Shown piece by piece: positions 15,347 to 43,718 of a DNA stretch of 64,000 bases; position 1 is the stretch's first letter; each line of letters opens with the position of its first letter. Below the pieces are notes generated by a model. It was not told where the DNA came from and ran no database searches. It saw only the letters and a list, made by a program, of their open reading frames with translations. The stretch is from Cantharellus purpuraceus (taxonomy: Eukaryota; Basidiomycota; Agaricomycetes; Cantharellales; Hydnaceae). Where the stretch lies: positions 671,549-735,548 of the forward strand of contig JALBUN010000014.1 in the NCBI GenBank assembly GCA_025174535.1, written 5' to 3'. The position numbers and the translations under genes are program-made.

Positions 15347-15554
15347 TGGTAGGAGTGAGTATGGCAGTTCAATATACTGTTACGCACTAGGTCCGATTGG
15401 GAGTCAGAGATTGGGTTGGAGGTTTGGTTGGAGTCAGAGTACGTCGTGGGGGTCAGAACGGACTTGGCTTCAGCTTATGTGCTGCGCCCTCACTAATACC
15501 GGTGTCTGAGATTTCGGAGACGGAGTACAACTTAGAGAGTTAGGATTGGACTTA

Positions 15555-16119
15555 GACGCTTGTTCGGAATCATGTCAGTATACAATATTCTGATGTATAT
15601 GAGATATACATCAGAATTTCAATGATACATAAAGCCAGGGAGTTACAATTTGGATATCTTAAAAGATTTCGGATGTGTGAAATTTTCATAAATATAAACA
15701 TATATTCTATATTTTAATAAACTTTAAAAGATAAGATATTTGGTTGAGATGAACATAATTATTTACATGGATATAATAGGAATGTATATATGAATATAAT
15801 TGGTATTATATAGGGTATTTAGATATACAAATACCAGGTGGGGATTAAAGATAGTTCAAATTATGTTATAAGTATTGTATAAGAAAGAATCAATGATATT
15901 TGGATGTTCCTTCAAGAGAGTTGCCACCACTAAATCAGGAAAAAAGAATTATTTTTGAGAATTATGCCAAAATATCAAAATATGTTTTAATCTAGTATAT
16001 TGTGTAAAATTTGAGAATCATGTTGAAATATGAAAATAAGTTTGAATTGAAGTGTATTGTATAAAATTTGAGGAAAATAGGTTGTACATACGTATTTGTT
16101 GTATTTCTGAATAAGCATC
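15555..16119 (+). repeat. Left terminal direct repeat of DDE element 1
   Basis: This 565-bp non-coding AT-rich unit is repeated in the same orientation at 23043-23608. Each unit by itself carries inverted ends (GACGCTTGTTC...GAATAAGCATC; the last has one change). A near-perfect hairpin, attctgatgtatat with its complement around gag, lies at 15587-15617. Confidence 0.9.
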
Positions 16120-16646
16120 TTAGGAAAGTCTTGGAAACAAACACCTTTAATGCAGTGAAGCTATTTTTAAAACAAAGTAACTTAGTTAGGGCATAGTGGT
16201 AGATAATCTTGTTCTAACATGAGACTGTATGACTATCCCTCGTACTTTAGGGTGCAATACCATCAGATTTTCCATCCAAAGTGGTGGAAAATAATGATCC
16301 TGCTCCATACTAGTATATAACTCTGTTAATTTCTGTTCCAGAAGTGTGCCATCAGTACATCTGTATAAAGTCAGTGATTGGAACCTTGATATTTATAAAG
16401 GAACTTACCTCAGAAACAAATCATGGAGGGATCCTATCCGAGATATATACCAATCATTAACTCTTCTATCAAACTCTATCTTGCATTGAAGCATAAAAGA
16501 GAGCATCTTCATAATGCTTATAACATAAAAACATAATAATCATTTTATTAAGAAAGCAAGATGTATATATCTACTGCCTATACAAAATATCAAATGTTCA
16601 GAAAAAATGATTATTATGTTTTTTCATTTCTGTTTTATAAGCAGAG
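16120..16646 (+). promoter_or_regulatory. Leader region of DDE element 1 with a 19-bp inverted repeat
   Basis: No gene is visible in this 527-bp AT-rich stretch. Close to its end, aaaacataataatcatttt (about 16527-16546) is repeated in inverted form at about 16604-16623, just before the first ORF at 16647. It could be a transposase or regulator binding site or a stem in the leader RNA. It is also present in DDE element 2 (42640-42740). Confidence 0.4.
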
Positions 16647-16901
16647 ATGGATTTGAAAATGCCACAAATCTTTGAAGATATAAAAGCAATCAAAGGCTGG
16701 ATAAGTGACAATGATGCACTGATAAAAGCTATGGCAAGTCAAATGGAAGTAAAAGATGAATTAATATCTGATCTTATAAATGTCAAGTCTTGGATGAGTG
16801 AAAAGGATAGGCAGATCACTATGCTTGAACAACAGGTTAATTCCCAGAGTCAGGAAATTCAGGTGCTTAAGAAACAGGTTGAGGAAAAAATACAATTATA
16901 A
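16647..16901 (+). CDS. Coiled-coil ORF 1 of DDE element 1
   Basis: An 84-residue predicted protein starting MDLKMPQIFEDIKAIKGW. It has heptad-like hydrophobic spacing and many Glu/Lys/Gln residues in the second half (ITMLEQQVNSQSQEIQVLKK), which suggests a coiled coil. It repeats a WISDN/WMSEKD motif that reappears in the next ORF (WMSEMND), so the two probably belong to one protein joined by a short intron or separated by a frameshift at 16870-16910. In DDE element 2 the first ATG is changed to AGG, and translation would begin three codons later. No family recognised. Confidence 0.55.
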   Translation: MDLKMPQIFEDIKAIKGWISDNDALIKAMASQMEVKDELISDLINVKSWMSEKDRQITMLEQQVNSQSQEIQVLKKQVEEKIQL

Positions 16902-16906
16902 CTACT

Positions 16907-18139
16907 TTGACAGACAGGAAAGAGAATTTAGATGAATGGATGAGTGAAATGAATGATATTGTATCAGGATTTGGAACAGATATTCATAAACTTCAGAGAC
17001 AGGTTAATAGGTGTGTTGCCACAATATCAGACCATGGAACAGATATTCATCAACAGGTCAATACACATAATGCAGAGAATCTTATATTGGACTATAGAAC
17101 AGATATTCATAAACTTCAGAAACAGGTTAATAGATGTATTGCAACAATATCAGACATTGTGGAATGGAAATCTGAAGTGCATGAGTGGATTGTAGAAACA
17201 GATGATACTGTAGTGGAACTTGGAACAGACATTAATAAACTTCAGAAACAGGGTGATGAATATAAAGCAATAATATCTGAGATTGTTGACTGGAAATTTG
17301 ATATGAATCACTGGGCTGGAAAACAAGAACAGGAGGTAACAAGGTTACAGGAAAATGGTACCAGAAAGGTGACATTTAAGATAGTGAAAAGAGGTGTAGA
17401 CTATATACTTATAGACTCAGATCAGTCTTGTAGACTAAATAGAATGGAATTATTCATAAATGGTGAGCCTAGAAAACTATCTACAATATATACTAGAAAG
17501 AATGAAATGTCATCATATGACGTAGATGGTAATAGGATTAATTTTCAAACATGGAAGCAAGGAATGACTCAAGGTTTAAGGCATCAAGAAAAAGGTCTAA
17601 TGAACGATCTCAAACTCCTAGTTCAAGGCATCAAGAAAAAAGGTCTAAGGAACGATCTGATTCAGACTCTGATCAATCTGATTCAGACTCTGATCAATCT
17701 GATTCAGACTCTGATCAATCTGATTCAGACTCTGATCAATCTGATTCAGACTCTGATCAATCTGATTCAGACTCTGATCAATCTGATTCAGACTCTGATC
17801 AATCTGATTCAGACTCTGATCAATCTGATTCAGACTCTGATCAATCTGATTCAGACTCTGATCAATCTGATTCAGACTCTGATCAATCTGATTCAGACTC
17901 TGATCAATCTGATTCAGACTCTGATCAATCTGATTCAGACTCTGATCAATCTGATTCAGACTCTGATCAATCTGATTCAGACTCTGATCAATCTGATTCA
18001 GACTCTGATCAATCTGATTCAGACTCTGATCAATCTCAAATTCCTAGTTCAAGAAAAAGATGTAGAGGGAGAACCCAGTAATGTAAGCCTCCGAAGACGT
18101 AGGATACAAGGTCACCTTGGAGTGAATGGCTGTCCATGA
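16907..18139 (+). CDS. Coiled-coil and heptad-repeat protein of DDE element 1
   Basis: The frame has no ATG until 16940 and probably continues ORF 1. Residues 1-150 hold three or four related blocks (TDIHKLQ-QVNRCxATISD), each predicted to be helical, followed by a small folded-looking region (VTFKIVKRGVDYILIDSD, NGEPRKLSTIYTRKNEMSSYDVDG). After that the DNA is 18 copies of a 21-bp repeat. In this frame the repeat encodes LIQTLIN. In the overlapping frame at 17551-18081 the same DNA encodes SDSDSDQ. The second reading gives a more protein-like ending, so a frameshift or small intron near 17520-17560 may switch frames. Function unknown; coil and acidic repeat suggest a structural or binding role. 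Confidence 0.5.
   Translation: MTDRKENLDEWMSEMNDIVSGFGTDIHKLQRQVNRCVATISDHGTDIHQQVNTHNAENLILDYRTDIHKLQKQVNRCIATISDIVEWKSEVHEWIVETDDTVVELGTDINKLQKQGDEYKAIISEIVDWKFDMNHWAGKQEQEVTRLQENGTRKVTFKIVKRGVDYILIDSDQSCRLNRMELFINGEPRKLSTIYTRKNEMSSYDVDGNRINFQTWKQGMTQGLRHQEKGLMNDLKLLVQGIKKKGLRNDLIQTLINLIQTLINLIQTLINLIQTLINLIQTLINLIQTLINLIQTLINLIQTLINLIQTLINLIQTLINLIQTLINLIQTLINLIQTLINLIQTLINLIQTLINLIQTLINLIQTLINLIQTLINLKFLVQEKDVEGEPSNVSLRRRRIQGHLGVNGCP
17551..18081 (+). CDS. Ser/Arg- and Ser/Asp-rich frame overlapping the coiled-coil ORF
   Basis: This 176-residue frame begins with a basic Ser/Arg segment (ASRKRSNERSQTPSSRHQEK), passes through 18 copies of SDSDSDQ, and ends with a second basic segment (IPSSRKRCRGRTQ). 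The repeated SSR-K motif on both sides of the repeat suggests that this is the real reading of the 3' half. It has no clear upstream start, so it would need joining to the frame before it. In DDE element 2 it is 197 residues long, exactly three repeat units more. Confidence 0.45.
   Translation: MEARNDSRFKASRKRSNERSQTPSSRHQEKRSKERSDSDSDQSDSDSDQSDSDSDQSDSDSDQSDSDSDQSDSDSDQSDSDSDQSDSDSDQSDSDSDQSDSDSDQSDSDSDQSDSDSDQSDSDSDQSDSDSDQSDSDSDQSDSDSDQSDSDSDQSDSDSDQSQIPSSRKRCRGRTQ
17656..18033 (+). repeat. 21-bp tandem repeat, 18 copies
   Basis: The unit gattcagactctgatcaatct repeats with almost no variation across 378 bp. The unit is a multiple of three, so all frames without a stop stay open. The second DDE element has 21 copies (41176-41616), showing recent expansion or contraction. 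Confidence 0.95.
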
Positions 18140-18154
18140 GCAGTCTAATGATGT

Positions 18155-18696
18155 CCCTATCTGTCGTTTCATTTCTCCATGATTTCCCCTTTAGTAGCTC
18201 AACTTCACACGCTTCGTCAGCTGGCTTGATCAGCATTTCTTGCATCATTTGCTCCTCATATTGTGTCGTTGTGCCCTGGGAATTTGTATATAAAAGGGCG
18301 CTAGTTTTTGCCTTTGGAATCAAAAAACAAGTTTTCAGCCAACGCTCTAAGTCTACACTCTACATCACAATCCATCATCTCTACACTGAGGTAAAACACC
18401 TTGGTTCAACGATCAGATTTCCCTCCGCCACCGAGAGGTTGCTTCTCCTGAAACCAGCTTTCGCGTACCTTCCAACCGGGCTCCGCATTGTCATCCAGTC
18501 ACAGAGCACGATCAGCCATCGGGACCGACCTTTTGCTCCCATCCTCATCCAACCACAGAGCACTATCCCACTTCCCTGTTACGTACCCCTCGCCCTGATT
18601 GATCTTTGGAGTGCTGAACAACTGCGTTACACACCGTCTGCTTGCTAGGACCATTGCACGCAGGCTTATAGGATCTATTCCATAAGCGAACCGACA
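18155..18696 (+). mobile_element. LTR family A fragment inside DDE element 1
   Basis: A 540-bp piece of the 3' half of LTR family A, with its TATA box and the terminal gcgaaccgaca, lies between the repeat ORF and the small-ORF region. The same fragment is in DDE element 2 at 40513-41054, so it was acquired before the two copies separated. It is bounded by a 33-bp imperfect inverted repeat (18123-18155 and 18703-18735, 27 of 33 matching). Confidence 0.85.
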
Positions 18697-18795
18697 CCGA
18701 GTGACATCATCGGGCTGCTCAAGGACAACGATTCAATTATCTGGTACACCATGCCGCTGCAAAGTCTCACCTACTGTCTGCTCAGTAAGTGCATC

Positions 18796-18835
18796 ATTAT
18801 CAACCCTCACAGCCAAAAGGCTGTCCTTTGATAAT
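18796..18835 (+). other. Imperfect hairpin in the spacer of DDE element 1
   Basis: The stem attatcaa...cagcc pairs with ggctg...ttgataat around an aaaa loop. It is conserved in DDE element 2. No function can be assigned from sequence alone. Confidence 0.35.
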
Positions 18836-18839
18836 GTGA

Positions 18840-19188
18840 TCAAACTGCTCCTGACAAGGTGACCTTCCATCCGACGTCATTACCATGATATGATAATATC
18901 CAATCGGCTGGTACACCTATTTAGCTATGCAGCAAAGAATTTGGAATGAAAGACTGGCAAGATAGGAAACAAGGAACTGGTAGAAGAATGATAGATGAAA
19001 GGACAGGGAATTCTGTATGGGACTTTGTTGTAGTATTCAGAACGAGTGCATGCATCTGGCTATTGACAACTTTAGAAAATATATATAATTCAATTTATAA
19101 ATATTAGATAAAAATATGGACATTCTGCTCTTCAGAACTATGCACATATCTAGTAAATAAATTTTATATATCCTTCTTTATTGACATC
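18840..19188. other. Spacer of DDE element 1 without a recognised gene
   Basis: I see no convincing ORF here. The sequence is AT-rich and, from 19080, contains tata-rich stretches that may serve as promoter for the small ORFs that follow. Confidence 0.4.
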
Positions 19189-19356
19189 ATGGGTAAAGAT
19201 AAGAAGTGCAATGATTGGAGTTCTCATGATCTTTGGGATTATGGTATAATGGTTGACACACAATGGACTAAACAGTTTTTTGAGACAGATTTTAGAGATA
19301 TTACTTTAGATACTGATGATGAGATCCTCAGTTTTGATTACAAAAAGATGATGTGA
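19189..19356 (+). CDS. Small ORF A of DDE element 1 (55 residues)
   Basis: A 55-residue acidic protein starting MGKDKKCNDWSSHDLWDY, with an aromatic-rich middle (WTKQFFETDF) and an acidic end. The ATG follows a T-rich, TATA-containing stretch and the whole frame is conserved in the other copy (39853-40020, minus). It may be an exon of the next ORF, because the sequence between them is short, but a splice that keeps the frame is not obvious. Not recognised. Confidence 0.4.
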   Translation: MGKDKKCNDWSSHDLWDYGIMVDTQWTKQFFETDFRDITLDTDDEILSFDYKKMM

Positions 19357-19433
19357 AATGTTTAAAGGAGTCTTCAAGAAAATTTTTACATACTTAGATA
19401 AGGAAGAATAAGGGAAAAAGTGCTTTAGAGGAA

Positions 19434-19679
19434 ATGACAATACCTTGCATTCAAACATCGAGAAAAGTCCCCCAGTTTTACCTAGTAACTGTTACAAGAG
19501 AGCTTGATCATGCTATCACAGAAGGGTTGTTTTCAGAAGTGATAACAAATGTAAGGTGTTGTTTTCCTGTAACAGTAACAGGTATGAAACATATTAATAG
19601 TAGAAAGAATGTTCTACAGTGTTTTGAAGCATTTAAGAAGTTTGTAGATATACTTGATAGGAAATTAGATGAGAAATAA
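19434..19679 (+). CDS. Small ORF B of DDE element 1 (81 residues)
   Basis: An 81-residue protein that starts MTIPCIQTSRKVPQFYLV. It alternates beta-prone stretches (FYLVTVTRELDH, CCFPVTVTG) with a C-terminal helix (NVLQCFEAFKKFVDILDRKL). The frame is open a further 12 codons upstream of the ATG to a position that looks like a 3' splice site (acatacttag), so it may be a downstream exon. It is identical in DDE element 2 (39530-39775). Function unknown. Confidence 0.5.
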   Translation: MTIPCIQTSRKVPQFYLVTVTRELDHAITEGLFSEVITNVRCCFPVTVTGMKHINSRKNVLQCFEAFKKFVDILDRKLDEK

Positions 19680-19717
19680 TGAGTTTTGAAAATTAATATA
19701 TAATAACCAGAGACACC

Positions 19718-19897
19718 ATGTTGAATATACCTGAGATTGGTGATAAGGTATCATTTATCAATGCAAGAACACAAATGACAGTGACAGGTATTGTTACATT
19801 AGTAACTGGCACTTTGTCAGATGACACTTTGCTAATAACTGTTACTTATGATGACAATGAGATTCAGCTACCACTACGTGCACTACAACAAGTATAA
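19718..19897 (+). CDS. Small ORF C of DDE element 1 (59 residues), beta-rich
   Basis: A 59-residue protein, MLNIPEIGDKVSFINARTQM at its start, with alternating hydrophobic residues and turns (TVTGIVTLVTGTL, LLITVTYDDNEIQLPL). The pattern IGDKVSF...G.V....D.L.I.YDD suggests a small five-stranded barrel of the SH3/Tudor kind, which would fit a nucleic-acid or chromatin binding role. This is a shape-based guess, not an identified family. It starts 38 bp after ORF B and is conserved in DDE element 2 (39312-39491). Confidence 0.5.
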   Translation: MLNIPEIGDKVSFINARTQMTVTGIVTLVTGTLSDDTLLITVTYDDNEIQLPLRALQQV

Positions 19898-19948
19898 GAT
19901 AAATCAGATAAGTGAATATGCAATATTTTTATTCACTCAAATGAAGGC

Positions 19949-20171
19949 ATGTGTGGTGATAGTGAAAAATTCAAATTACTTGGAAGTGCAATCATATAAC
20001 TACTACATCTGTAGTTACAGATTGTAAGGATAATAAATGTCCTAAGAGCTCTGAACATTCAAAAATACTCATCATGATACTAATGGTACTTATTGTTGTG
20101 TGAACAAAAGTTCAAATCTTGAAATTATCCAAGTGAAAATAGATGAAAAATGTTGTGAGTGTAGAAACTAG
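19949..20171 (+). pseudogene. Cysteine-rich ORF with two frame breaks in DDE element 1
   Basis: Reading across two one-base frame changes (near 19978 and 20065) gives a Cys-rich peptide with TDCKDNKCPKSSEHSK, then TYCCVNKSS and EKCCECRN at the end. The three segments together contain at least ten cysteines in paired spacing. The same breaks are in DDE element 2 (39038-39260). It may be a spliced small gene, a decayed one, or chance; it lies between ORF C and the convergent 216-residue gene. Confidence 0.35.
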
Positions 20172-20189
20172 GACTTTTAAATCAACTCC

Positions 20190-20840
20190 TTATGAGGATT
20201 CTTTGAACATCTGATTTCTTATACTTTGGAATATAATGTCAATAGCATTAGAACACTCTTCAAACTGAGCTTCTATGCTGTATCCAGAGGAAGGATATAC
20301 AACAATTGAAACACCCTGATTGTTATTGGTGGTTTCATATAATTTTAACCTACCATCCTTAGTTATGATCATACCATAGATTGTGATTTTACTTTTCTTG
20401 AAAACTCTCTGCTGTTGTTTCAATGCAACAACCATTGATGTAACCAAATTGTTATACACATCACAGTTCTTACAAGTTTCCCCAGCAATAGAAATATCAC
20501 ACTTCTTGCCAGTTTCTCTAGCAATAGAAATATTACAACTAGGCAGATTATCCTGTTGCATGGTTTGCAGACTTGACATACAATGATTTTGTTGAATCCA
20601 GGTTGAATTACTTATTTCATTGCCCTTTTCAATCATCTTATTGTACAGTGCTTCTGGTGTTTTATCTCTTTCCTGAGAAACCGATCCAGCTGGAAAGAAG
20701 TCCTTTGGGGGATTTCTTAATCTGAATTTTATGTAGATGGTGTCAGAGTCTATATACAAAGGATTTTCATCATCCTCTGGTTCTTTTTTAACAAAGACAG
20801 TAGATATTTTACGAACAACTTGCTTAGAGACAGACAACAT
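20190..20840 (-). CDS. 216-residue protein on the opposite strand of DDE element 1
   Basis: An intact minus-strand ORF beginning MLSVSKQVVRKISTVFVKKE and ending MFKESS. Residues 10-60 are charged; the middle has two Cys pairs (KKCDIS, KNCDVY) within repeated IARETGKKCD / IAGETCKNCD blocks; residues 130-216 look folded with alternating strands and a final helix (KITIYGMIITKDGRLKLYE, ECSNAIDIIFQSIRNQ). It diverges from the transposase gene across a 100-bp region at 20840-20937, a likely bidirectional promoter. Element 2 differs by two residues. PIF/Harbinger elements usually carry a second gene for a Myb-like DNA-binding protein; no Myb motif is visible here, so that role is only possible. Confidence 0.6.
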   Translation of the reverse strand: MLSVSKQVVRKISTVFVKKEPEDDENPLYIDSDTIYIKFRLRNPPKDFFPAGSVSQERDKTPEALYNKMIEKGNEISNSTWIQQNHCMSSLQTMQQDNLPSCNISIARETGKKCDISIAGETCKNCDVYNNLVTSMVVALKQQQRVFKKSKITIYGMIITKDGRLKLYETTNNNQGVSIVVYPSSGYSIEAQFEECSNAIDIIFQSIRNQMFKESS

Positions 20841-20936
20841 AGCTTCATAGAATACATATTATTTAATTTAAAATTCAATTATCAAAAAAATGAACATATT
20901 TTTGTTTTACTGTAATATAAGAGTATCTTAGTCAAA
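20841..20936. promoter_or_regulatory. Divergent intergenic region of DDE element 1
   Basis: This AT-rich 96-bp stretch lies between the start codons of the 216-residue gene (minus) and the upstream ORF of the transposase (plus). Its position suggests a shared promoter; no specific site was identified. Confidence 0.35.
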
Positions 20937-21136
20937 ATGCCCTCAGACCAGCAAAACGCACAAAGGAGCAAAAAGAGAAAGAGCAAAAAGAGAAAGAAGA
21001 AAAAGAGCTTCAGCAACTTAAAATGTGGAATGATCAAAGGGACAGAGCATATAATAAGTTGATGGACAATCATTGGAATTTTCTATACACAAAGTGGCCT
21101 GTCTTAGAACACAAAAATATCATAGAACAAAACTAA
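20937..21136 (+). pseudogene. Upstream charged ORF of the transposase, frameshifted in copy 1
   Basis: In DDE element 2 (38072-38272) this is an open 66-residue frame: MPSDQQKR followed by a KEQKEKE-rich helix and a Trp/Tyr segment (MWNDQRDRAYNKLMDNHW). In copy 1 one A is missing from an A-run near 20957, which breaks the frame after eight codons. The stop comes five bases before the likely ATG of the transposase (21142). The charged helix may be the N-terminal part of the transposase joined by a -1 shift, or a separate small protein. Confidence 0.55.
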
Positions 21137-21141
21137 AAGAT

Positions 21142-22410
21142 ATGAATGACATGGATGATGTAAAAAAAGTAGTATATAACAAGCTTGGACCAATACCAGT
21201 ATTTTTCTTTCTTGTGGTATTGTTTTCAGTTGAAGAACATTCTACACCTTATAGAGAGATAGAAAAAGGCTTGTTAGTACTATATCATCTACTCAAAGGT
21301 CCTACTTATGAAGAAATAGGAAATTTCATGCCATCAAGTAGCTTTTATGATGTTCATAAGGAATTTTATGGTCGTCTGCATCATCTTAACTTTGATCTAG
21401 ATAAACAAGTTACTGATTCACTGCGTACAATGTTCTCAAATATAATAATAAGGATATTATCAGCTCTTATAAAGAATCCTCCAAAAATGGAATCAGTGAC
21501 ATTACTTCTTGATGGTCATGATACAAGAGGAATTTTGATTGGATCGACATCTGAAGAGGGGTACTCACATAAATTTAAAAAGGCAGGATTTCGTACTCAA
21601 GTATGCATTGACATTAATCAAATGGTTCTATTCACCTCACCTTCATTGGCATGTAAACTAAATCCTGATGCAAAAATGTTTGTAGAGATGGCTGTATGGA
21701 ATAAAATAGATAAGAATGATCAGATAGGCTTTGATGGAGCTTATCCATCTGCTATTCCAGAAGTAGTAAAGGCAAGTATATTAAAGCCTAAGAACTTCTT
21801 TTATCCTTTTCGGAAGCCAAAAATGTTGAACTTAAACCTGAAGAAAAGATTTTTAATAAGAAGTTTGGTGCCTTTCGTTCAACAGTAGAAGCATTCTTTG
21901 GAGGGTTTGCAATATTGTTTGAAAAATTTGATAATAAGAGATCTATTAGAACTACAAATCCTGCTGTCTTTAATCTGGAATTAAAGGTAGCATGTCTATT
22001 ATGGAATATTAAGAAATTTGTAGAACTACGTAAGATCAAACCATCCCCTTATCATGAAAAATGGTGTGAACAATATTTTGATTACCCTGAGGAAGAGGAC
22101 CCAGATATTGAGCCACCCAGATCATTACTGGAAAGAGCAGAAGATGTTGACAAGATGACTCTATCTCAACAACGACTATTAGAAAGATGTGAGTATGATG
22201 TGGAGATGCATTATGAGACTGAAAATGAAGTAGAACAAATAATAAGGCAAAGAAAAAGGAAAGTACGTAGAATATTTAGTTAAATGGAAATGTTATGCAG
22301 AGAAAACTTGGGAAGCAACATCAAGCTTTAAATCTACAGAATGTATTAAAGAGTATTGGAAAGACAATAGTAATAGTATTATTGTATACCTATGCTACAT
22401 TCAACTGTAA
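21142..22410 (+). CDS. DDE transposase (PIF/Harbinger-like) with C-terminal chromodomain, DDE element 1
   Basis: From ATG 21142 the protein has a helix-turn-helix-like segment (GPTYEEIGNFMPSSSFYDVH), then an IS5/Harbinger-type DDE domain: first Asp in LLLDGHD (about residue 124), second in GFDGAYP (about residue 198). The frame ends at 21888, but the third catalytic Glu (FRSTVEAFFGG) is in the -1 frame that continues to 22283. A candidate 41-nt intron at 21776-21816 (donor gtatat, acceptor gaag) joins the two frames exactly. The C-terminus reads YDVEMHYETENEVEQIIRQR and then, after another shift near 22262, EYLVKWKCYAEKTWE, a clear chromodomain pattern ending at 22410. Both frame changes are identical in the second copy. 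It would cut and paste the element; the chromodomain suggests chromatin targeting. Confidence 0.72.
21776..21816 (+). other. Candidate short intron in the transposase gene
   Basis: The 41-nt segment begins gtatat, contains cctaag as a possible branch site and a pyrimidine-rich tract, and ends ggaag. Removing it joins the frame holding the first two catalytic Asp to the frame holding the Glu without a stop. It is short and its acceptor is not the preferred cag/tag, so a frameshift remains possible. Confidence 0.4.
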
Positions 22411-22465
22411 ATTTTTTTCCCAGAATAAAATTGAATATTTGTATGTTTTATACTTATAGGTATCT

Positions 22466-22963
22466 ATGGAGACTGATCCATTACTGAAACAGCGTCTCAA
22501 TCAACAGTTTTACCAAAAGCCTTTTCACAGCAATCCACACCGGCTAGCTAATTGTGCAACGTGTGACTGGTACCCCTTTGGGCAGTATCTGGACCGTTCA
22601 TATGCTGAAGGTGAAGTGTTCCAGCTTTCAAAGTATCCTCATATCAAATATGTATTTCTTGGTCTACAACCTGATAAAATAGGCTATAATGAAAGTGATC
22701 CTATTTTTGTAGCAGAATTTGCAGGTTTTCTGAATAAAACCAACAGATTTGTAAGTGGTTCTGATCCAACCTCTGGATATGCACACATTATAACCACACA
22801 TGTGAATCAGGCGTTTGTTAGACAGCCAGGCCCAGATATAAATAGGCAGAAACTATATCTTGGCCGTACAGTGCACATGATCTACATAACTAGTATTGGT
22901 ATACTATTGGCTTTGCTGTGTTGGACAGTGTCCAGACATACCAATGAAGATAAGAATTCATAA
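22466..22963 (+). CDS. 165-residue protein with C-terminal membrane helix, DDE element 1
   Basis: An intact ORF, METDPLLKQRLNQQFYQKPF at its start. The middle has a CATCDWYPFGQYLDRSY segment with a Cys pair and many aromatic residues, and IITTHVNQAFVRQPGP. Residues about 137-155 (MIYITSIGILLALLCWTV) form a single hydrophobic helix followed by a short polar tail, so it would be a tail-anchored or single-pass membrane protein. It starts 55 bp after the chromodomain frame and is identical in DDE element 2. A membrane protein is unexpected in a DNA transposon; it could be cargo. No family recognised. Confidence 0.65.
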   Translation: METDPLLKQRLNQQFYQKPFHSNPHRLANCATCDWYPFGQYLDRSYAEGEVFQLSKYPHIKYVFLGLQPDKIGYNESDPIFVAEFAGFLNKTNRFVSGSDPTSGYAHIITTHVNQAFVRQPGPDINRQKLYLGRTVHMIYITSIGILLALLCWTVSRHTNEDKNS

Positions 22964-23042
22964 TGGCATGTCTAAATCTATGGAGAAAGAAGCTTGTTGA
23001 TGATATAAGGTGATGATTTTTGTTTTTAAAATGACCTCCCTA

Positions 23043-23608
23043 GACGCTTGTTCGGAATCATGTCAGTATACAATATTCTGATGTATATGAGATATACATC
23101 AGAATTTCAATGATACATAAAGCCAGGGAGTTACAATTTGGATATCTTAAAAGATTTCGGATGTGTGAAATTTTCATAAATATAAACATATATTCTATAT
23201 TTTAATAAACTTTTAAAGATAAGACATTTGGTTGAGATGAACATAATTATTTACATGGATATAATAGGAATGTATGTATTAATATAATTGGTATTATATA
23301 AGGTATTTAGATATACAAATACCAGGTGGGGATTAAAGATAGTTCAAATTATGTTATAAGTATTGTATAAGAAAGAATCAATGATATTTGGATGTTCCTT
23401 CAAGAGAGTTGCCACCACTAAATCAGGAAAAAAAGAATTATTTTTGAGAATTATGCCAAAATATCAAAATATGTTTTAATCTAGTATATTGTGTAAAATT
23501 TGAGAATCATGTTGAAATATGAAAATAAGTTTGAATTGAAGTGTATTGTATAAAATTTGAGGAAAATAGGTTGTACATACGTATTTGTTGTATTTCTGAA
23601 TAAGCGTC
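23043..23608 (+). repeat. Right terminal direct repeat of DDE element 1
   Basis: This 566-bp unit is nearly identical to 15555-16119 in the same orientation and carries the same hairpin (23075-23105). It ends GAATAAGCGTC directly before the TTA target duplication. No coding sequence. Confidence 0.92.
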
Positions 23609-23948
23609 TTAGGAACTAGGCGTGATTCGATATTTGAACTGGGGAATGAAGTCCCCAGTCGGACAACTTAAATACATATTTTGAAATCTAATAATAATTA
23701 CTCTGGTGATGGGTCTCTGAGGCCGACGGCCTTAATGAGTATGTCTGAGTCCGATGGGGACGGATGTCCGGGTTCCTATGGTGATGCTGATGCATCAATC
23801 GGAACCAGAGACGGATGGGCGGAACCAGCGGTGACAATCGGACAGGTAGATGGAGACGGTGGTTTCCAAATGGAGTATAGATTTCATATGCATGGGGATC
23901 TGAGTGGATCGGACAGGGATCTGGGCGTTAATGAATATAATCATAACA

Positions 23949-35599: not shown

Positions 35600-36165
35600 G
35601 ACGCTTATTCAGAAATACAACAAATACGTATGTACAACCTATTTTCCTCAAATTTTATACAATACACTTCAATTCAAACTTATTTTCATATTTCAACATG
35701 ATTCTCAAATTTTACACAATATACTAGATTAAAACATATTTTGATATTTTGGCATAATTCTCAAAAATAATTCTTTTTTTCCTGATTTAGTGGTGGCAAC
35801 TCTCTTGAAGGAACATCCAAATATCATTGATTCTTTCTTATACAATACTTATAACATAATTTGAACTATCTTTAATCCCCACCTGGTATTTGTATATCTA
35901 AATACCTTATATAATACCAATTATATTAATACATACATTCCTATTATATCCATGTAAATAATTATGTTCATCTCAACCAAATGTCTTATCTTTAAAAGTT
36001 TATTAAAATATAGAATATATGTTTATATTTATGAAAATTTCACACATCCGAAATCTTTTAAGATATCCAAATTGTAACTCCCTGGCTTTATGTATCATTG
36101 AAATTCTGATGTATATCTCATAGACATCAGAATATTGTATACTGACATGATTCCGAACAAGCGTC
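35600..36165 (-). repeat. Terminal direct repeat of DDE element 2 (3' end of the element)
   Basis: This 566-bp unit matches 43153-43718 in the same orientation and the two units of DDE element 1 in reverse. The hairpin has one mismatch here (tagacatc instead of tatacatc). Confidence 0.9.
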
Positions 36166-36244
36166 TAGGGAGGTCATTTTAAAAACAAAAATCATCACCT
36201 TATATCATCAACAAGCTTCTTTCTCCATAGATTTAGACATGCCA

Positions 36245-36742
36245 TTATGAATTCTTATCTTCATTGGTATGTCTGGACACTGTCCAACACAGCAAAGCCA
36301 ATAGTATACCAATACTAGTTATGTAGATCATGTGCACTGTACGGCCAAGATATAGTTTCTGCCTATTTATATCTGGGCCTGGCTGTCTAACAAACGCCTG
36401 ATTCACATGTGTGGTTATAATGTGTGCATATCCAGAGGTTGGATCAGAACCACTTACAAATCTGTTGGTTTTATTCAGAAAACCTGCAAATTCTGCTACA
36501 AAAATAGGATCACTTTCATTATAGCCTATTTTATCAGGTTGTAGACCAAGAAATACATATTTGATATGAGGATACTTTGAAAGCTGGAACACTTCACCTT
36601 CAGCATATGAACGGTCCAGATACTGCCCAAAGGGGTACCAGTCACACGTTGCACAATTAGCTAGCCGGTGTGGATTGCTGTGAAAAGGCTTTTGGTAAAA
36701 CTGTTGATTGAGACGCTGTTTCAGTAATGGATCAGTCTCCAT
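36245..36742 (-). CDS. 165-residue protein with C-terminal membrane helix, DDE element 2
   Basis: The predicted protein is identical to that at 22466-22963, including the Cys pair in CATCDWYPF and the final hydrophobic helix. Perfect conservation between independent insertions mostly reflects their young age. Confidence 0.65.
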   Translation of the reverse strand: METDPLLKQRLNQQFYQKPFHSNPHRLANCATCDWYPFGQYLDRSYAEGEVFQLSKYPHIKYVFLGLQPDKIGYNESDPIFVAEFAGFLNKTNRFVSGSDPTSGYAHIITTHVNQAFVRQPGPDINRQKLYLGRTVHMIYITSIGILLALLCWTVSRHTNEDKNS

Positions 36743-36797
36743 AGATACCTATAAGTATAAAACATACAAATATTCAATTTTATTCTGGGAAAAAAAT

Positions 36798-38066
36798 TTA
36801 CAGTTGAATGTAGCATAGGTATACAATAATACTATTACTATTGTCTTTCCAATACTCTTTAATACATTCTGTAGATTTAAAGCTTGATGTTGCTTCCCAA
36901 GTTTTCTCTGCATAACATTTCCATTTAACTAAATATTCTACGTACTTTCCTTTTTCTTTGCCTTATTATTTGTTCTACTTCATTTTCAGTCTCATAATGC
37001 ATCTCCACATCATACTCACATCTTTCTAATAGTCGTTGTTGAGATAGAGTCATCTTGTCAACATCTTCTGCTCTTTCCAGTAATGATCTGGGTGGCTCAA
37101 TATCTGGGTCCTCTTCCTCAGGGTAATCAAAATATTGTTCACACCATTTTTCATGATAAGGGGATGGTTTGATCTTACGTAGTTCTACAAATTTCTTAAT
37201 ATTCCATAATAGACATGCTACCTTTAATTCCAGATTAAAGACAGCAGGATTTGTAGTTCTAATAGATCTCTTATTATCAAATTTTTCAAACAATATTGCA
37301 AACCCTCCAAAGAATGCTTCTACTGTTGAACGAAAGGCACCAAACTTCTTATTAAAAATCTTTTCTTCAGGTTTAAGTTCAACATTTTTGGCTTCCGAAA
37401 AGGATAAAAGAAGTTCTTAGGCTTTAATATACTTGCCTTTACTACTTCTGGAATAGCAGATGGATAAGCTCCATCAAAGCCTATCTGATCATTCTTATCT
37501 ATTTTATTCCATACAGCCATCTCTACAAACATTTTTGCATCAGGATTTAGTTTACATGCCAATGAAGGTGAGGTGAATAGAACCATTTGATTAATGTCAA
37601 TGCATACTTGAGTACGAAATCCTGCCTTTTTAAATTTATGTGAGTACCCCTCTTCAGATGTCGATCCAATCAAAATTCCTCTTGTATCATGACCATCAAG
37701 AAGTAATGTCACTGATTCCATTTTTGGAGGATTCTTTATAAGAGCTGATAATATCCTTATTATTATATTTGAGAACATTGTACTCAGTGAATCAGTAACT
37801 TGTTTATCTAGATCAAAGTTAAGATGATGCAGACGACCATAAAATTCCTTATGAACATCATAAAAGCTACTTGATGGCATGAAATTTCCTATTTCTTCAT
37901 AAGTAGGACCTTTGAGTAGATGATATAGTACTAACAAGCCTTTTTCTATCTCTCTATAAGGTGTAGAATGTTCTTCAACTGAAAACAATACCACAAGAAA
38001 GAAAAATACTGGTATTGGTCCAAGCTTGTTATATACTACTTTTTTTACATCATCCATGTCATTCAT
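36798..38066 (-). CDS. DDE transposase with C-terminal chromodomain, DDE element 2
   Basis: It has the same layout as copy 1: start ATG at 38066, DGHD and GFDGAYP in one frame (to 37320), FRSTVEAFFGG and the chromodomain start in the next (to 36925), and EYLVKWKCY in a third (to 36798). One residue differs (DSLSTMF here, DSLRTMF in copy 1). The frame changes are the same, so they were present in the common parent or are bridged by splicing or frameshifting. The upstream charged ORF (38072-38272) is intact only in this copy. Confidence 0.72.
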
Positions 38067-38071
38067 ATCTT

Positions 38072-38272
38072 TTAGTTTTGTTCTATGATATTTTTGTGTT
38101 CTAAGACAGGCCACTTTGTGTATAGAAAATTCCAATGATTGTCCATCAACTTATTATATGCTCTGTCCCTTTGATCATTCCACATTTTAAGTTGCTGAAG
38201 CTCTTTTTCTTCTTTCTCTTTTTGCTCTTTCTCTTTTTGCTCCTTTGTGCGTTTTTGCTGGTCTGAGGGCAT
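38072..38272 (-). CDS. Charged 66-residue ORF upstream of the transposase, intact copy
   Basis: The ORF begins MPSDQQKRTKEQKEKE and continues as a Lys/Glu-rich helix to KMWNDQRDRAYNKLMDNHW. It ends five bases before the transposase ATG. The frame of the downstream gene is open through the overlap in the -1 position, so a joined product is possible. Copy 1 has lost one A in the run after GACCAGC. Confidence 0.5.
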   Translation of the reverse strand: MPSDQQKRTKEQKEKEQKEKEEKELQQLKMWNDQRDRAYNKLMDNHWNFLYTKWPVLEHKNIIEQN

Positions 38273-38368
38273 TTTGACTAAGATACTCTTATATTACAGT
38301 AAAACAAAAATATGTTCATTTTTTTGATAATTGAATTTTAAATTAAATAATATGTATTCTATGAAGCT

Positions 38369-39019
38369 ATGTTGTCTGTCTCTAAGCAAGTTGTTAGTAA
38401 AATATCTACTGTCTTTGTTAAAAAAGAACCAGAGGATGATGAAAATCCTTTGTATATAGACTCTGACACCATCTACATAAAATTCAGATTAAGAAATCCC
38501 CCAAAGGACTTCTTTCCAGCTGGATCGGTTTCTCAGGAAAGAGATAAAACACCAGAAGCACTGTACAATAAGATGATTGAAAAGGGCAATGAAATAAGTA
38601 ATTCAACCTGGATTCAACAAAATCATTGTATGTCAAGTCTGCAAACCATGCAACAGGATAATCTGCCTAGTTGTAATATTTCTATTGCTAGAGAAACTGG
38701 CAAGAAGTGTGATATTTCTATTGCTGGGGAAACTTGTAAGAACTGTGATGTGTATAACAATTTGGTTACATCAATGGTTGTTGCATTGAAACAACAGCTG
38801 AGAGTTTTCAAGAAAAGTAAAATCACAATCTATGGTATGATCATAACTAAGGATGGTAGGTTAAAATTATATGAAACCACCAATAACAATCAGGGTGTTT
38901 CAATTGTTGTATATCCTTCCTCTGGATACAGCATAGAAGCTCAGTTTGAAGAGTGTTCTAATGCTATTGACATTATATTCCAAAGTATAAGAAATCAGAT
39001 GTTCAAAGAATCCTCATAA
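38369..39019 (+). CDS. 216-residue protein, DDE element 2
   Basis: Intact ORF matching 20190-20840, with two substitutions (VVSKIS for VVRKIS, KQQLRV for KQQQRV). It is divergent from the transposase gene. The region with two repeated I-A-R/G-E-T blocks and Cys pairs is unchanged. Function unknown. Confidence 0.6.
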   Translation: MLSVSKQVVSKISTVFVKKEPEDDENPLYIDSDTIYIKFRLRNPPKDFFPAGSVSQERDKTPEALYNKMIEKGNEISNSTWIQQNHCMSSLQTMQQDNLPSCNISIARETGKKCDISIAGETCKNCDVYNNLVTSMVVALKQQLRVFKKSKITIYGMIITKDGRLKLYETTNNNQGVSIVVYPSSGYSIEAQFEECSNAIDIIFQSIRNQMFKESS

Positions 39020-39037
39020 GGAGTTGATTTAAAAGTC

Positions 39038-39260
39038 CTAGTTTCTACACTCACAACATTTTTCATCTATTTTCACTTGGATAATTTCAAGATTTGAACT
39101 TTTGTTCACACAACAATAAGTACCATTAGTATCATGATGAGTATTTTTGAATGTTCAGAGCTCTTAGGACATTTATTATCCTTACAATCTGTAACTACAG
39201 ATGTAGTAGTTATATGATTGCACTTCCAAGTAATTTGAATTTTTCACTATCACCACACAT
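39038..39260 (-). pseudogene. Cysteine-rich broken ORF, DDE element 2
   Basis: This matches 19949-20171 with the same two frame breaks. It reads CPKSSEHSK, CCVNKSS and CCECRN in different frames. Whether it is spliced, decayed or not a gene cannot be decided from sequence alone. Confidence 0.35.
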
Positions 39261-39311
39261 GCCTTCATTTGAGTGAATAAAAATATTGCATATTCACTTA
39301 TCTGATTTATC

Positions 39312-39491
39312 TTATACTTGTTGTAGTGCACGTAGTGGTAGCTGAATCTCATTGTCATCATAAGTAACAGTTATTAGCAAAGTGTCATCTGACAAAGTGC
39401 CAGTTACTAATGTAACAATACCTGTCACTGTCATTTGTGTTCTTGCATTGATAAATGATACCTTATCACCAATCTCAGGTATATTCAACAT
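39312..39491 (-). CDS. Small ORF C, beta-rich, DDE element 2
   Basis: A 59-residue ORF identical in arrangement to 19718-19897, with the IGDKVSF and TVTYDDNEIQL strands. Possible small barrel fold; unrecognised. Confidence 0.5.
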   Translation of the reverse strand: MLNIPEIGDKVSFINARTQMTVTGIVTLVTGTLSDDTLLITVTYDDNEIQLPLRALQQV

Positions 39492-39529
39492 GGTGTCTCT
39501 GGTTATTATATATTAATTTTCAAAACTCA

Positions 39530-39775
39530 TTATTTCTCATCTAATTTCCTATCAAGTATATCTACAAACTTCTTAAATGCTTCAAAACACTGTAGAACAT
39601 TCTTTCTACTATTAATATGTTTCATACCTGTTACTGTTACAGGAAAACAACACCTTACATTTGTTATCACTTCTGAAAACAACCCTTCTGTGATAGCATG
39701 ATCAAGCTCTCTTGTAACAGTTACTAGGTAAAACTGGGGGACTTTTCTCGATGTTTGAATGCAAGGTATTGTCAT
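39530..39775 (-). CDS. Small ORF B, DDE element 2
   Basis: An 81-residue ORF identical to 19434-19679: beta-prone N-terminal half with CCFPVTVTG and a helical C-terminal half. Unrecognised. Confidence 0.5.
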   Translation of the reverse strand: MTIPCIQTSRKVPQFYLVTVTRELDHAITEGLFSEVITNVRCCFPVTVTGMKHINSRKNVLQCFEAFKKFVDILDRKLDEK

Positions 39776-39852
39776 TTCCTCTAAAGCACTTTTTCCCTTA
39801 TTCTTCCTTATCTAAGTATGTAAAAATTTTCTTGAAGACTCCTTTAAACATT

Positions 39853-40020
39853 TCACATCATCTTTTTGTAATCAAAACTGAGGATCTCATCATCAGTATC
39901 TAAAGTAATATCTCTAAAATCTGTCTCAAAAAACTGTTTAGTCCATTGTGTGTCAACCATTATACCATAATCCCAAAGATCATGAGAACTCCAATCATTG
40001 CACTTCTTATCTTTACCCAT
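39853..40020 (-). CDS. Small ORF A, DDE element 2
   Basis: A 55-residue acidic ORF matching 19189-19356 (start MGKDKKCNDWSSHD). It may be a separate gene or a first exon for ORF B. Confidence 0.4.
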   Translation of the reverse strand: MGKDKKCNDWSSHDLWDYGIMVDTQWTKQFFETDFRDITLDTDDEILSFDYKKMM

Positions 40021-40512
40021 GATGTCAATAAAGAAGGATATATAAAATTTATTTACTAGATATGTGCATAGTTCTGAAGAGCAGAATGTCCATATTTTTA
40101 TCTAATATTTATAAATTGAATTATATATATTTTCTAAAGTTGTCAATAGCCAGATGCATGCACTCGTTCTGAATACTACAACAAAGTCCCATACAGAATT
40201 CCCTGTCCTTTCATCTATCATTCTTCTACCAGTTCCTTGTTTCCTATCTTGCCAGTCTTTCATTCCAAATTCTTTGCTGCATAGCTAAATAGGTGTACCA
40301 GCCGATTGGATATTATCATATCATGGTAATGACGTCGGATGGAAGGTCACCTTGTCAGGAGCAGTTTGATCACATTATCAAAGGACAGCCTTTTGGCTGT
40401 GAGGGTTGATAATGATGCACTTACTGAGCAGACAGTAGGTGAGACTTTGCAGCGGCATGGTGTACCAGATAATTGAATCGTTGTCCTTGAGCAGCCCGAT
40501 GATGTCACTCGG

Positions 40513-41054
40513 TGTCGGTTCGCTTATGGAATAGATCCTATAAGCCTGCGTGCAATGGTCCTAGCAAGCAGGCGGTGTGTAACGCAGTTGTTCAGCACTC
40601 CAAAGATCAATCAGGGCGAGGGGTTCGTAACAGGGAAGTGGGATAGTGCTCTGTGGTTGGATGAGGATGGGAGCAAAAGGTCGGTCCCGATGGCTGATCG
40701 TGCTCTGTGACTGGATGACAATGCGGAGCCCGGTTGGAAGGTACGCGAAAGCTGGTTTCAGGAGAAGCAACCTCTCGGTGGCGGAGGGAAATCTGATCGT
40801 TGAACCAAGGTGTTTTACCTCAGTGTAGAGATGATGGATTGTGATGTAGAGTGTAGACTTAGAGCGTTGGCTGAAAACTTGTTTTTTGATTCCAAAGGCA
40901 AAAACTAGCGCCCTTTTATATACAAATTCCCAGGGCACAACGACACAATATGAGGAGCAAATGATGCAAGAAATGCTGATCAAGCCAGCTGACGAAGCGT
41001 GTGAAGTTGAGCTACTAAAGGGGAAATCATGGAGAAATGAAACGACAGATAGGG
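40513..41054 (-). mobile_element. LTR family A fragment inside DDE element 2
   Basis: This is the same fragment as at 18155-18696, with tgtcggttcgc at 40513 and the TATA box near 40915. The surrounding inverted arms are also present. It shows that the fragment is part of the element. Confidence 0.85.
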
Positions 41055-41069
41055 ACATCATTAGACTGC

Positions 41070-42365
41070 TCATGGACAGCCATTCACTCCAAGGTGACCT
41101 TGTATCCTACGTCTTCGGAGGCTTACATTACTGGGTTCTACCTCTACATCTTTTTCTTGAACTAGGAATTTGAGATTGATCAGAGTCTGAATCAGATTGA
41201 TCAGAGTCTGAATCAGATTGATCAGAGTCTGAATCAGATTGATCAGAGTCTGAATCAGATTGATCAGAGTCTGAATCAGATTGATCAGAGTCTGAATCAG
41301 ATTGATCAGAGTCTGAATCAGATTGATCAGAGTCTGAATCAGATTGATCAGAGTCTGAATCAGATTGATCAGAGTCTGAATCAGATTGATCAGAGTCTGA
41401 ATCAGATTGATCAGAGTCTGAATCAGATTGATCAGAGTCTGAATCAGATTGATCAGAGTCTGAATCAGATTGATCAGAGTCTGAATCAGATTGATCAGAG
41501 TCTGAATCAGATTGATCAGAGTCTGAATCAGATTGATCAGAGTCTGAATCAGATTGATCAGAGTCTGAATCAGATTGATCAGAGTCTGAATCAGATTGAT
41601 CAGAGTCTGAATCAGATCGTTCCTTAGACCTTTTTTCTTGATGCCTTGAACTAGGAGTTTGAGATCGTTCATTAGACCTTTTTCTTGATGCCTTAAACCT
41701 TGAGTCATTCCTTGCTTCCATGTTTGAAAATTAATCCTATTACCATCTACGTCATATGATGACATTTCATTCTTTCTAGTATATATTGTAGATAGTTTTC
41801 TAGGCTCACCATTTATGAATAATTCCATTCTATTTAGTCTACAAGACTGATCTGAGTCTATAAGTATATAGTCTACACCTCTTTTCACTATCTTAAATGT
41901 CACCTTTCTGGTACCATTTTCCTGTAACCTTGTTACCTCCTGTTCTTGTTTTCCAGCCCAGTGATTCATATCAAATTTCCAGTCAACAATCTCAGATATT
42001 ATTGCTTTATATTCATCACCCTGTTTCTGAAGTTTATTAATGTCTGTTCCAAGTTCCACTACAGTATCATCTGTTTCTACAATCCACTCATGCACTTCAG
42101 ATTTCCATTCCACAATGTCTGATATTGTTGCAATACATCTATTAACCTGTTTCTGAAGTTTATGAATATCTGTTCTATAGTCCAATATAAGATTCTCTGC
42201 ATTATGTGTATTGACCTGTTGATGAATATCTGTTCCATGGTCTGATATTGTGGCAACACACCTATTAACCTGTCTCTGAAGTTTATGAATATCTGTTCCA
42301 AATCCTGATACAATATCATTCATTTCACTCATCCATTCATCTAAATTCTCTTTCCTGTCTGTCAA
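41070..42365 (-). CDS. Coiled-coil and heptad-repeat protein, DDE element 2
   Basis: This corresponds to 16907-18139, with the same coiled-coil blocks and a 21-copy repeat. In this frame the repeat reads LIQTLIN; in the other open frame (41128-41721, 197 residues) it reads SDSDSDQ. The C-terminal difference VEVEPSN versus VEGEPSN is one of few changes. As in copy 1, which frame is translated in the 3' half is unresolved; the SDSDSDQ frame with basic Ser/Arg ends looks the more natural. Confidence 0.5.
   Translation of the reverse strand: MTDRKENLDEWMSEMNDIVSGFGTDIHKLQRQVNRCVATISDHGTDIHQQVNTHNAENLILDYRTDIHKLQKQVNRCIATISDIVEWKSEVHEWIVETDDTVVELGTDINKLQKQGDEYKAIISEIVDWKFDMNHWAGKQEQEVTRLQENGTRKVTFKIVKRGVDYILIDSDQSCRLNRMELFINGEPRKLSTIYTRKNEMSSYDVDGNRINFQTWKQGMTQGLRHQEKGLMNDLKLLVQGIKKKGLRNDLIQTLINLIQTLINLIQTLINLIQTLINLIQTLINLIQTLINLIQTLINLIQTLINLIQTLINLIQTLINLIQTLINLIQTLINLIQTLINLIQTLINLIQTLINLIQTLINLIQTLINLIQTLINLIQTLINLIQTLINLIQTLINLKFLVQEKDVEVEPSNVSLRRRRIQGHLGVNGCP
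41176..41616 (-). repeat. 21-bp tandem repeat, 21 copies
   Basis: The unit agattgatcagagtctgaat repeats without interruption over 441 bp, three copies more than in DDE element 1. Each unit contains tgatca, so the array is a long series of identical palindromic hexamers. Confidence 0.95.
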
Positions 42366-42370
42366 AGTAG

Positions 42371-42619
42371 TTATAATTGTATTTTTTCCTCAACCTGTTT
42401 CTTAAGCACCTGAATTTCCTGACTCTGGGAATTAACCTGTTGTTCAAGCATAGTGATCTGCCTATCCTTTTCACTCATCCAAGACTTGACATTTATAAGA
42501 TCAGATATTAATTCATCTTTTACTTCCATTTGACTTGCCATAGCTTTTATCAGTGCATCATTGTCACTTATCCAGCCTTTGATTGCTTTTATATCTTCAA
42601 AGATTTGTGGCATTTTCAA
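42371..42619 (-). CDS. Coiled-coil ORF 1, DDE element 2
   Basis: This 82-residue ORF matches 16647-16901 but its first ATG is changed, so it begins at MKMPQIFEDIKA. The rest is identical. It probably joins the following frame at 42365. Confidence 0.5.
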   Translation of the reverse strand: MKMPQIFEDIKAIKGWISDNDALIKAMASQMEVKDELISDLINVKSWMSEKDRQITMLEQQVNSQSQEIQVLKKQVEEKIQL

Positions 42620-43152
42620 ATACCTCTCTGCTTATAAAACAGAAATGAAAAAACATAATAATCATTTTTTCTGAACATTTGATATTTTGTATAGGCAGTA
42701 GATATATACATCTTGCTTTCTTAATAAAATGATTATTATGTTTTTATGTTATAAGCATTATGAAGATGCTCTCTTTTATGCTTCAATGCAAGATAGAGTT
42801 TGATAGAAGAGTTAATGATTGGTATATATCTCGGATAGGATCCCTCCATGATTTGTTTCTGAGGTAAGTTCCTTTATAAATATCAAGGTTCCAATCACTG
42901 ACTTTATACAGATGTACTGATGGCACACTTCTGGAACAGAAATTAACAGAGTTATATACTAGTATGGAGCAGGATCATTATTTTCCACCACTTTGGATGG
43001 AAAATCTGATGGTATTGCACCCTAAAGTACGAGGGATAGTCATACAGTCTTATGTTAGAACAAGATTATCTACCACTATGCCCTAACTAAGTTACTTTGT
43101 TTTAAAAATAGCTTCACTGCATTAAAGGTGTTTGTTTCCAAGACTTTCCTAA

Positions 43153-43718
43153 GACGCTTATTCAGAAATACAACAAATACATATGTACAACCTATTTTCC
43201 TCAAATTTTATACAATACACTTCAATTCAAACTTATTTTCATATTTCAACATGATTCTCAAATTTTACACAATATACTAGATTAAAACATATTTTGATAT
43301 TTTGGCATAATTCTCAAAAATAATTCTTTTTTTCCTGATTTAGTGGTGGCAACTCTCTTGAAGGAACATCCAAATATCATTGATTCTTTCTTATACAATA
43401 CTTATAACATAATTTGAACTATCTTTAATCCCCACCTGGTATTTGTATATCTAAATACCTTATATAATACCAATTATATTAATACATACATTCCTATTAT
43501 ATCCATGTAAATAATTATGTTCATCTCAACCAAATGTCTTATCTTTAAAAGTTTATTAAAATATAGAATATATGTTTATATTTATGAAAATTTCACACAT
43601 CCGAAATCTTTTAAGATATCCAAATTGTAACTCCCTGGCTTTATGTATCATTGAAATTCTGATGTATATCTCATATACATCAGAATATTGTATACTGACA
43701 TGATTCCGAACAAGCGTC
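43153..43718 (-). repeat. Terminal direct repeat of DDE element 2 (5' end of the element)
   Basis: This 566-bp unit is the partner of 35600-36165 in the same orientation. Its outer end GAACAAGCGTC directly adjoins the TTT duplication. Confidence 0.92.

Follow-up and report, generated by a model that had tools for sequence, protein, structure and literature searches.

How composite-like eukaryotic transposons move is an open question. It is raised here by an element of 8 kb found in Cantharellus purpuraceus, at positions 15555-23608 of a stretch of 64,000 nucleotides (hereafter 'the window') that represents the end of contig C14 (GenBank JALBUN010000014.1). The element consists of two direct-repeat units placed around an internal part (INT), with TTA on both sides. 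We searched the genome (40.15 Mb, 50 contigs) for its copies, junctions and insertion sites. What is new is a plan similar to that of the KolobokP transposons of animals in a Harbinger-type transposon of a fungus, together with evidence on how its ends are maintained.

Architecture and genomic copies

The following features of the window define the element.

15552-15554, no strand: TTA, left copy of the 3-bp target duplication (sequence and junction comparison)
15555-16119, forward strand: left unit (terminal direct repeat), with inverted ends GACGCTTGTTC / GAATAAGCATC (repeat comparison)
15587-15617, no strand: 31-nt palindrome with 14-nt arms and a 3-nt spacer, within the left unit
16120-23042, forward strand: INT, 6,923 bp in this copy
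23043-23608, forward strand: right unit (terminal direct repeat) (repeat comparison)
23075-23105: matching 31-nt palindrome within the right unit
23609-23611, no strand: TTA, right copy of the target duplication (sequence and junction comparison)
35600-43718, reverse strand: second full copy of the element in the window, with AAA on either side (unit search and junction comparison)

As the initial annotation of the window had it, the element ends in long direct repeats, and each of these units has inverted ends of its own. The left and right units (565 and 566 bp, respectively) are 98.8% identical in direct orientation. The 11-bp inverted ends proposed for the whole element hold at 11/11 positions in the copies ending with GAACAAGCGTC, but the outer ends of the copy at 15555-23608, GACGCTTGTTC and GAATAAGCGTC, are inverted-complementary at only 10/11. 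Among the 20 copies read, INT ranges from 6,056 to 7,129 bp. The arms of the palindrome are perfect in 51 of 114 located units; in 8 of the 114, its spacer is reversed (GAG vs CTC), as if the hairpin had flipped.

Genome-wide, with at most two mismatches, the 5' end of the unit has 525 matches and its 3' end 536. We found 61 left and 61 right junctions between a unit and INT, and reversed control patterns for these junctions had no match in the genome. Thus, the plan is not a product of chance. Pairing by hand yielded 54 INT copies with both junctions, a count that includes one 13-kb case and the members of arrays (C38, C44 and C45). INT therefore adjoins no more than 122 of the 525 unit starts, the remainder being solo units or fragments. 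We also sought INT starts and ends without requiring a unit; by-eye comparison placed all 59 starts and all 57 ends at a unit junction, so that copies without end repeats, which the initial annotation had named as evidence against its reading, were not seen. No INT-INT junction was detected in the genome by exact pattern.

C38, C44 and C45 are arrays in which neighbouring elements share units. In the C45 dimer, a single TAA duplication is found at the outer edges, and the three units differ by 1-2 substitutions. To characterize the solo units, we collected 36 units without INT, 4 of them truncated; most were chosen by exact 5' matches on contigs C1-C3, and the sample is therefore biased to intact 5' ends. 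Matching 3-bp flanks were present in 26 of the 32 complete ones, in agreement with the earlier prediction of solo units with duplications of their own. These units may result from recombination between the left and right ends, from transposition of single units, or from both.

Insertion sites

We compared 42 of the 54 INT copies by both units; exclusion of C15d, C26b and C37 (damaged unit) left 39 full copies. Their outer 3 bp match in 32 cases, compared with an average of 8.1 and a maximum of 17 in 10,000 shuffles. The target is a palindromic CTWAG-like site, with TAA or TTA at 30 of 57 distinct sites. Unoccupied paralogs of the site, with at most 4 mismatches in 29 and several of them exact, were found for 33 of 58 flank-matched insertions, one of which (L027) is ambiguous as it lies in a short tandem repeat. 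For the copy at 15555-23608, the TTA duplication initially proposed was corroborated by paralogs of the joined flanks that carry a single TTA, with 2-3 mismatches in 29. Paralogous empty sites were also identified for the copy at 35600-43718, with 1-4 mismatches in 29. The whole element is thus inserted with a 3-bp duplication, and the paralogous empty sites support exact insertion. They also indicate that the elements often insert into other repeats, and some insertions (C23, C24 and L050) are within the element's own family.

We considered L038 and L040 as one duplicated insertion and rejected this possibility, as the site that they share lies in another repeat, whose copies at the two loci have diverged. 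An empty copy of that repeat is present at window position 12432, making this a repeated target site. In the contig pairs L004/L005, L039/L090-L091 and L029/L095, the insertion is common and the flanks are identical over the stretches compared (700 bases for the first pair, 18 for the other two), which suggests that segments were duplicated recently or that the assembly contains two haplotypes.

The two ends of a copy usually match each other

In the 39 elements, the left and right units of the same copy differ on average at 2.33 sites. Between elements, the means are 10.73 for left-left, 10.70 for right-right and 10.72 for left-right comparisons. The lowest mean in 2,000 random left-right pairings was 8.64, so that the observed value lies below all of them. 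The partner within the copy is the closest or equal-closest unit in 27 elements, and 16 elements have no left-right substitution at all. The latter represent 14 unit haplotypes, with all four combinations found at 103 of 190 informative site pairs. Distance correlations calculated for 20 elements were 0.80 between left and right units, 0.01 between the first and second halves of the left unit, and 0.07 between unit and INT, INT diverging by 0.45% between copies. The units are therefore recombinant mosaics, uncoupled from INT, that occur as matched pairs; both recombination and homogenisation of the ends have taken place.

The initial annotation viewed the element as a composite transposon, in which two short non-autonomous units mobilise the DNA between them. 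In such a model, two independently mobile units would flank INT by chance. The solo units with their own 3-bp duplications, more numerous than the INT copies, and the inverted ends borne by every unit are in line with it, and composite assembly may have been the first origin of the plan. However, no separate left and right unit types were seen among the 39 elements: left units are no closer to other left units and match their right partners within the copy, which argues against two independently evolving ends. Furthermore, excision of a single unit should leave INT starts or ends devoid of a unit, and we found 0 of 59 and 0 of 57, respectively. Remnants of this type do occur in KolobokP (PMC9587614). 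We consider the composite model very unlikely and, on the basis of the within-copy matching, we rejected the idea that the element now moves by means of two independent end units. The paired recombinant units thus permit a test, and its outcome favours a single copy as the source of both remade ends, not two separate units.

The state of the flanks is linked to that of the ends. The 7 flank-mismatched copies have a median left-right difference of 7; for the 32 with matching flanks, the median is 0.5 (p = 2.9e-4). The two copies of C15a/C26b, likely a duplicated insertion, still show 5 and 8 differences between left and right. That matching flanks go with matching ends, and that C15a/C26b has kept its differences, speaks for identity of the two units at insertion.

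The main, and serious, rival to this idea is that the whole element moves by cut-and-paste and that in-place gene conversion between repeats approximately 7 kb apart keeps the units alike. Nearby direct repeats in fungi convert often, and tracts common to other elements at one end only, found in W1, C15c, L022 and L031, show that sequence exchange does occur. Nevertheless, in-place conversion alone leaves unexplained both the divergent units of the flank-mismatched copies and the differences retained by C15a/C26b, although neither point is decisive. We regard this scenario as possible, on balance rather doubtful.

A possible transposition cycle

The reading that we prefer, giving it slightly better than even chances, is that the element is a PIF/Harbinger-type DNA transposon with a unit-INT-unit plan, which moves via a form where one unit serves both ends. 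The DDE transposase encoded in INT would recognise the short inverted ends that each unit has, a role that we infer from the gene; insertion at TWA-like sites with a 3-bp duplication is evident from the junctions and empty sites. Movement would pass through a unit-INT circle or a tandem array with shared units. Both ends of a new insertion would then derive from one sequence and be identical at the start, like LTRs (long terminal repeats). Two routes are conceivable. The transposase might release unit-INT-unit from a concatemer or from a homogenised array; alternatively, it might act on the single unit of the circle and join the 3' end at either edge to the target, and gap filling would double the unit. 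Recombination between copies would scramble the units before this end-doubling step, and later exchange between insertions would generate unequal units and mismatched flanks. A single unit as the source of both ends would account for the matched pairs, recombination among copies or circles for the mosaics and their uncoupling from INT, and the circle or array forms for the shared-unit arrays and solo units as well. The circle or concatemer, the cuts by the transposase and the gap filling are all putative steps of this model.

A more specific proposal is that of an LTR-like cycle without reverse transcription, in which the one-unit circle or concatemer is obligate, the second repeat is remade by transposase and gap repair at each insertion, and the plan arose separately from the KolobokP one, both superfamily and kingdom being different. 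We put it forward tentatively, at somewhat less than even probability.

A number of observations weigh against a single unit as the source of both ends. In-place gene conversion is likewise able to make two repeats equal. In 12 of the 39 elements, the left unit has a closer match in some other unit than in its partner. Seven of the 32 flank-matched copies, including that at 15555-23608, have 3-6 left-right differences, and for several of them both alleles are present in other elements, which implies that exchange also takes place after insertion. Left-right difference was not significantly related to the number of private INT changes in 17 copies (Spearman 0.32, p = 0.20; group test, p = 0.12). 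Of the units in the C44 array, the intact two are 2 substitutions apart and 8-10 away from the damaged first one. Finally, we recognised no replication gene in the element, and the evidence comes from assembled contigs, in which the circle form was not seen.

LTR retrotransposons have near-identical terminal repeats, solo repeats, and mismatched flanks after exchange between copies, and the element resembles them in all three respects. It might thus be a disguised retroelement, copied through RNA in the LTR manner by outside enzymes and carrying a captured transposase. The identical ends, the mosaics reminiscent of template switching, the solo units and the shared-unit arrays would fit. However, Pfam scans of 21 ORFs (open reading frames) or ORF pieces, some overlapping, detected no reverse transcriptase, protease, RNase H or retroviral integrase, and both the 3-bp TWA-like duplications and the 11-nt inverted ends are typical of Harbinger, not of LTR retrotransposons. 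By eye alone, no purine-rich tract was recognised ahead of the right unit in the copy at 15555-23608. Since no retroelement protein was found in that set, we rejected an LTR retroelement, and the disguised form appears highly improbable. If one unit does serve both ends, DNA transposition would suffice to maintain terminal direct repeats, and their identity would not by itself prove a retroelement.

The transposase and a chromodomain-like stretch

Two features of INT are relevant to the class of the element.

20937-22284, forward strand: DDE_Tnp_4 (PIF/Harbinger-type) transposase gene, frame broken in this copy (ORFs, Pfam and alignment)
22252-22407, forward strand: chromodomain-like coding stretch, in a frame different from that of the transposase end (PF00385, E = 9.5e-5, 22.7 bits, cut-off 25.1)

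A DDE transposase fitting PIF/Harbinger, as first annotated, is indeed encoded, though its frame is broken in the copy at 15555-23608 (248 aa). The PF13359 match reaches 23.0 bits, 1.8 below the cut-off of 24.8. A search of the genome with PF13359 gave 9 matches, all inside mapped copies of the element, with three loci above the cut-off alone and a fourth together with its neighbours. Among the 20 full copies read, 4 (L031, L036, L037 and L038) have an uninterrupted transposase frame of 444-449 aa. Frame-breaking indels, judged by length, are present in 13 of the 20; W1 is broken as well but falls outside that count. As there are dozens of young copies, and a few of them have an open transposase frame, the question of movement is directly testable.

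We collected 80 relatives of the transposase at 30-53% identity. PF13359 is present in 71, of which 53 also have a PF00385 chromodomain. The named relatives are from Mucoromycota (Apophysomyces, Rhizomucor, Mortierella, Actinomortierella, Circinella and Thamnidium). The DDE residues are invariant across 9 aligned sequences. Fused to the transposase in many relatives, the chromodomain-like stretch is out of frame with it in all 16 copies where we located it (20 examined), which may reflect decay or frameshifting. The predicted structure of relative P0001 (mean pLDDT 89) contains a clear chromodomain (Foldseek probability 1.00) and otherwise resembles Tn5 and retroviral integrases only weakly, no match reaching E <= 0.001. 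A phmmer search of the transposase against solved structures identified no relative, and DNA of the relatives was not found in viral contigs.

Comparison with known systems

The element has a DDE_Tnp_4 transposase with DDE residues, 3-bp duplications with a preference for TWA and short inverted ends, like members of PIF/Harbinger (PMC12730594). Terminal direct repeats are not mentioned in the available part of that account of PIF/Harbinger (PHIS), which separates the Harbinger lineages from one another and states a Myb/SANT partner protein for Nuwa families (PMC12730594). The Cantharellus element further differs in its size of 8 kb and its five recurrent ORFs, and no Myb/SANT partner was found in the scanned ORFs, a diverged one being possible. 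Other Harbinger-type lineages also have no such partner.

The initial annotation knew of no fungal family with this plan. The plan itself has been described in animals, in the KolobokP transposons of the Kolobok superfamily, as LTDR-INT-LTDR (Kojima and Bao 2022; PMC9587614). There, repeats of ~450 or 660 bp with 11-18-bp inverted ends flank INT, solo repeats and arrays with shared repeats occur, and a DDD/E transposase is encoded within INT (PMC9587614). The ends are 5'-RR..YY-3' (PMC9587614), as are the GA..TC ends of the Cantharellus element. In contrast, the C/DxxH motif that marks Kolobok transposases (PMC9587614) is missing from the element's own aligned row and was found in 0 of the 32 relatives with both anchors located (of 41). 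The His-Me finger nuclease usual in KolobokP had no Pfam match in the scanned ORFs, although some KolobokP families are devoid of it too, and INT-INT remnants are known in KolobokP (PMC9587614), unlike in the genome searched here by exact pattern. We thus rejected membership in KolobokP on the transposase motif and the nuclease.

The authors of that study describe KolobokP as 'Unlike any other DNA transposons' and call its molecular pathway unknown; in its available part, left-right identity within a copy is not treated (PMC9587614). Our literature searches returned no Harbinger or fungal example of such end repeats among the matches listed. A Crypton paper among them deals, in its available part, with short direct repeats of another kind. 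The absence of a fungal or Harbinger description thus stands within these matches, and the plan is now found in a second transposase superfamily and in a fungus.

In IS26, circles are composed of one terminal element plus passenger, and arrays share terminal elements; the transposase sits in the terminal element, and flanking copies need not be alike. The Cantharellus element is similar in its arrays and in the proposed one-unit circle, with the difference that its transposase is encoded in INT. Translocatable units of the IS26 type are discussed alongside KolobokP (PMC9587614).

Other genes and segments of INT

The rest of INT harbours the following features.

16647-18081, forward strand: ORF1 region, coiled-coil protein with a 21-bp minisatellite, broken in the window copy
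18096-18878, no strand: segment between 24-nt inverted arms (88%)
19189-19679, forward strand: ORF broken in the window copy (55 + 81 aa)
20190-20840, reverse strand: 216-aa ORF, open in 20/20 copies, nothing convincing in Pfam
22466-22963, forward strand: 165-aa ORF, open in 20/20 copies, no Pfam match

INT does contain multiple ORFs, as first reported, but only about five, rather than ten, recur across copies. ORF1, the 256-aa, the 216-aa and the 165-aa ORFs are recurrent and have no convincing family matches. Four ORFs tested for selection gave proportions that did not deviate from neutrality. ORF1 is open as 355 aa in L038 and as 509 aa in L025, and the ORF at 19189-19679 is open as 256 aa in L029 and L030. 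The 21-bp minisatellite (~17640-18050), which codes for an SDSDQ-type repeat, varies strongly in length among copies. The middle of the segment at 18096-18878 is mostly absent in L029, L030 and L035, and this segment is perhaps a nested element.

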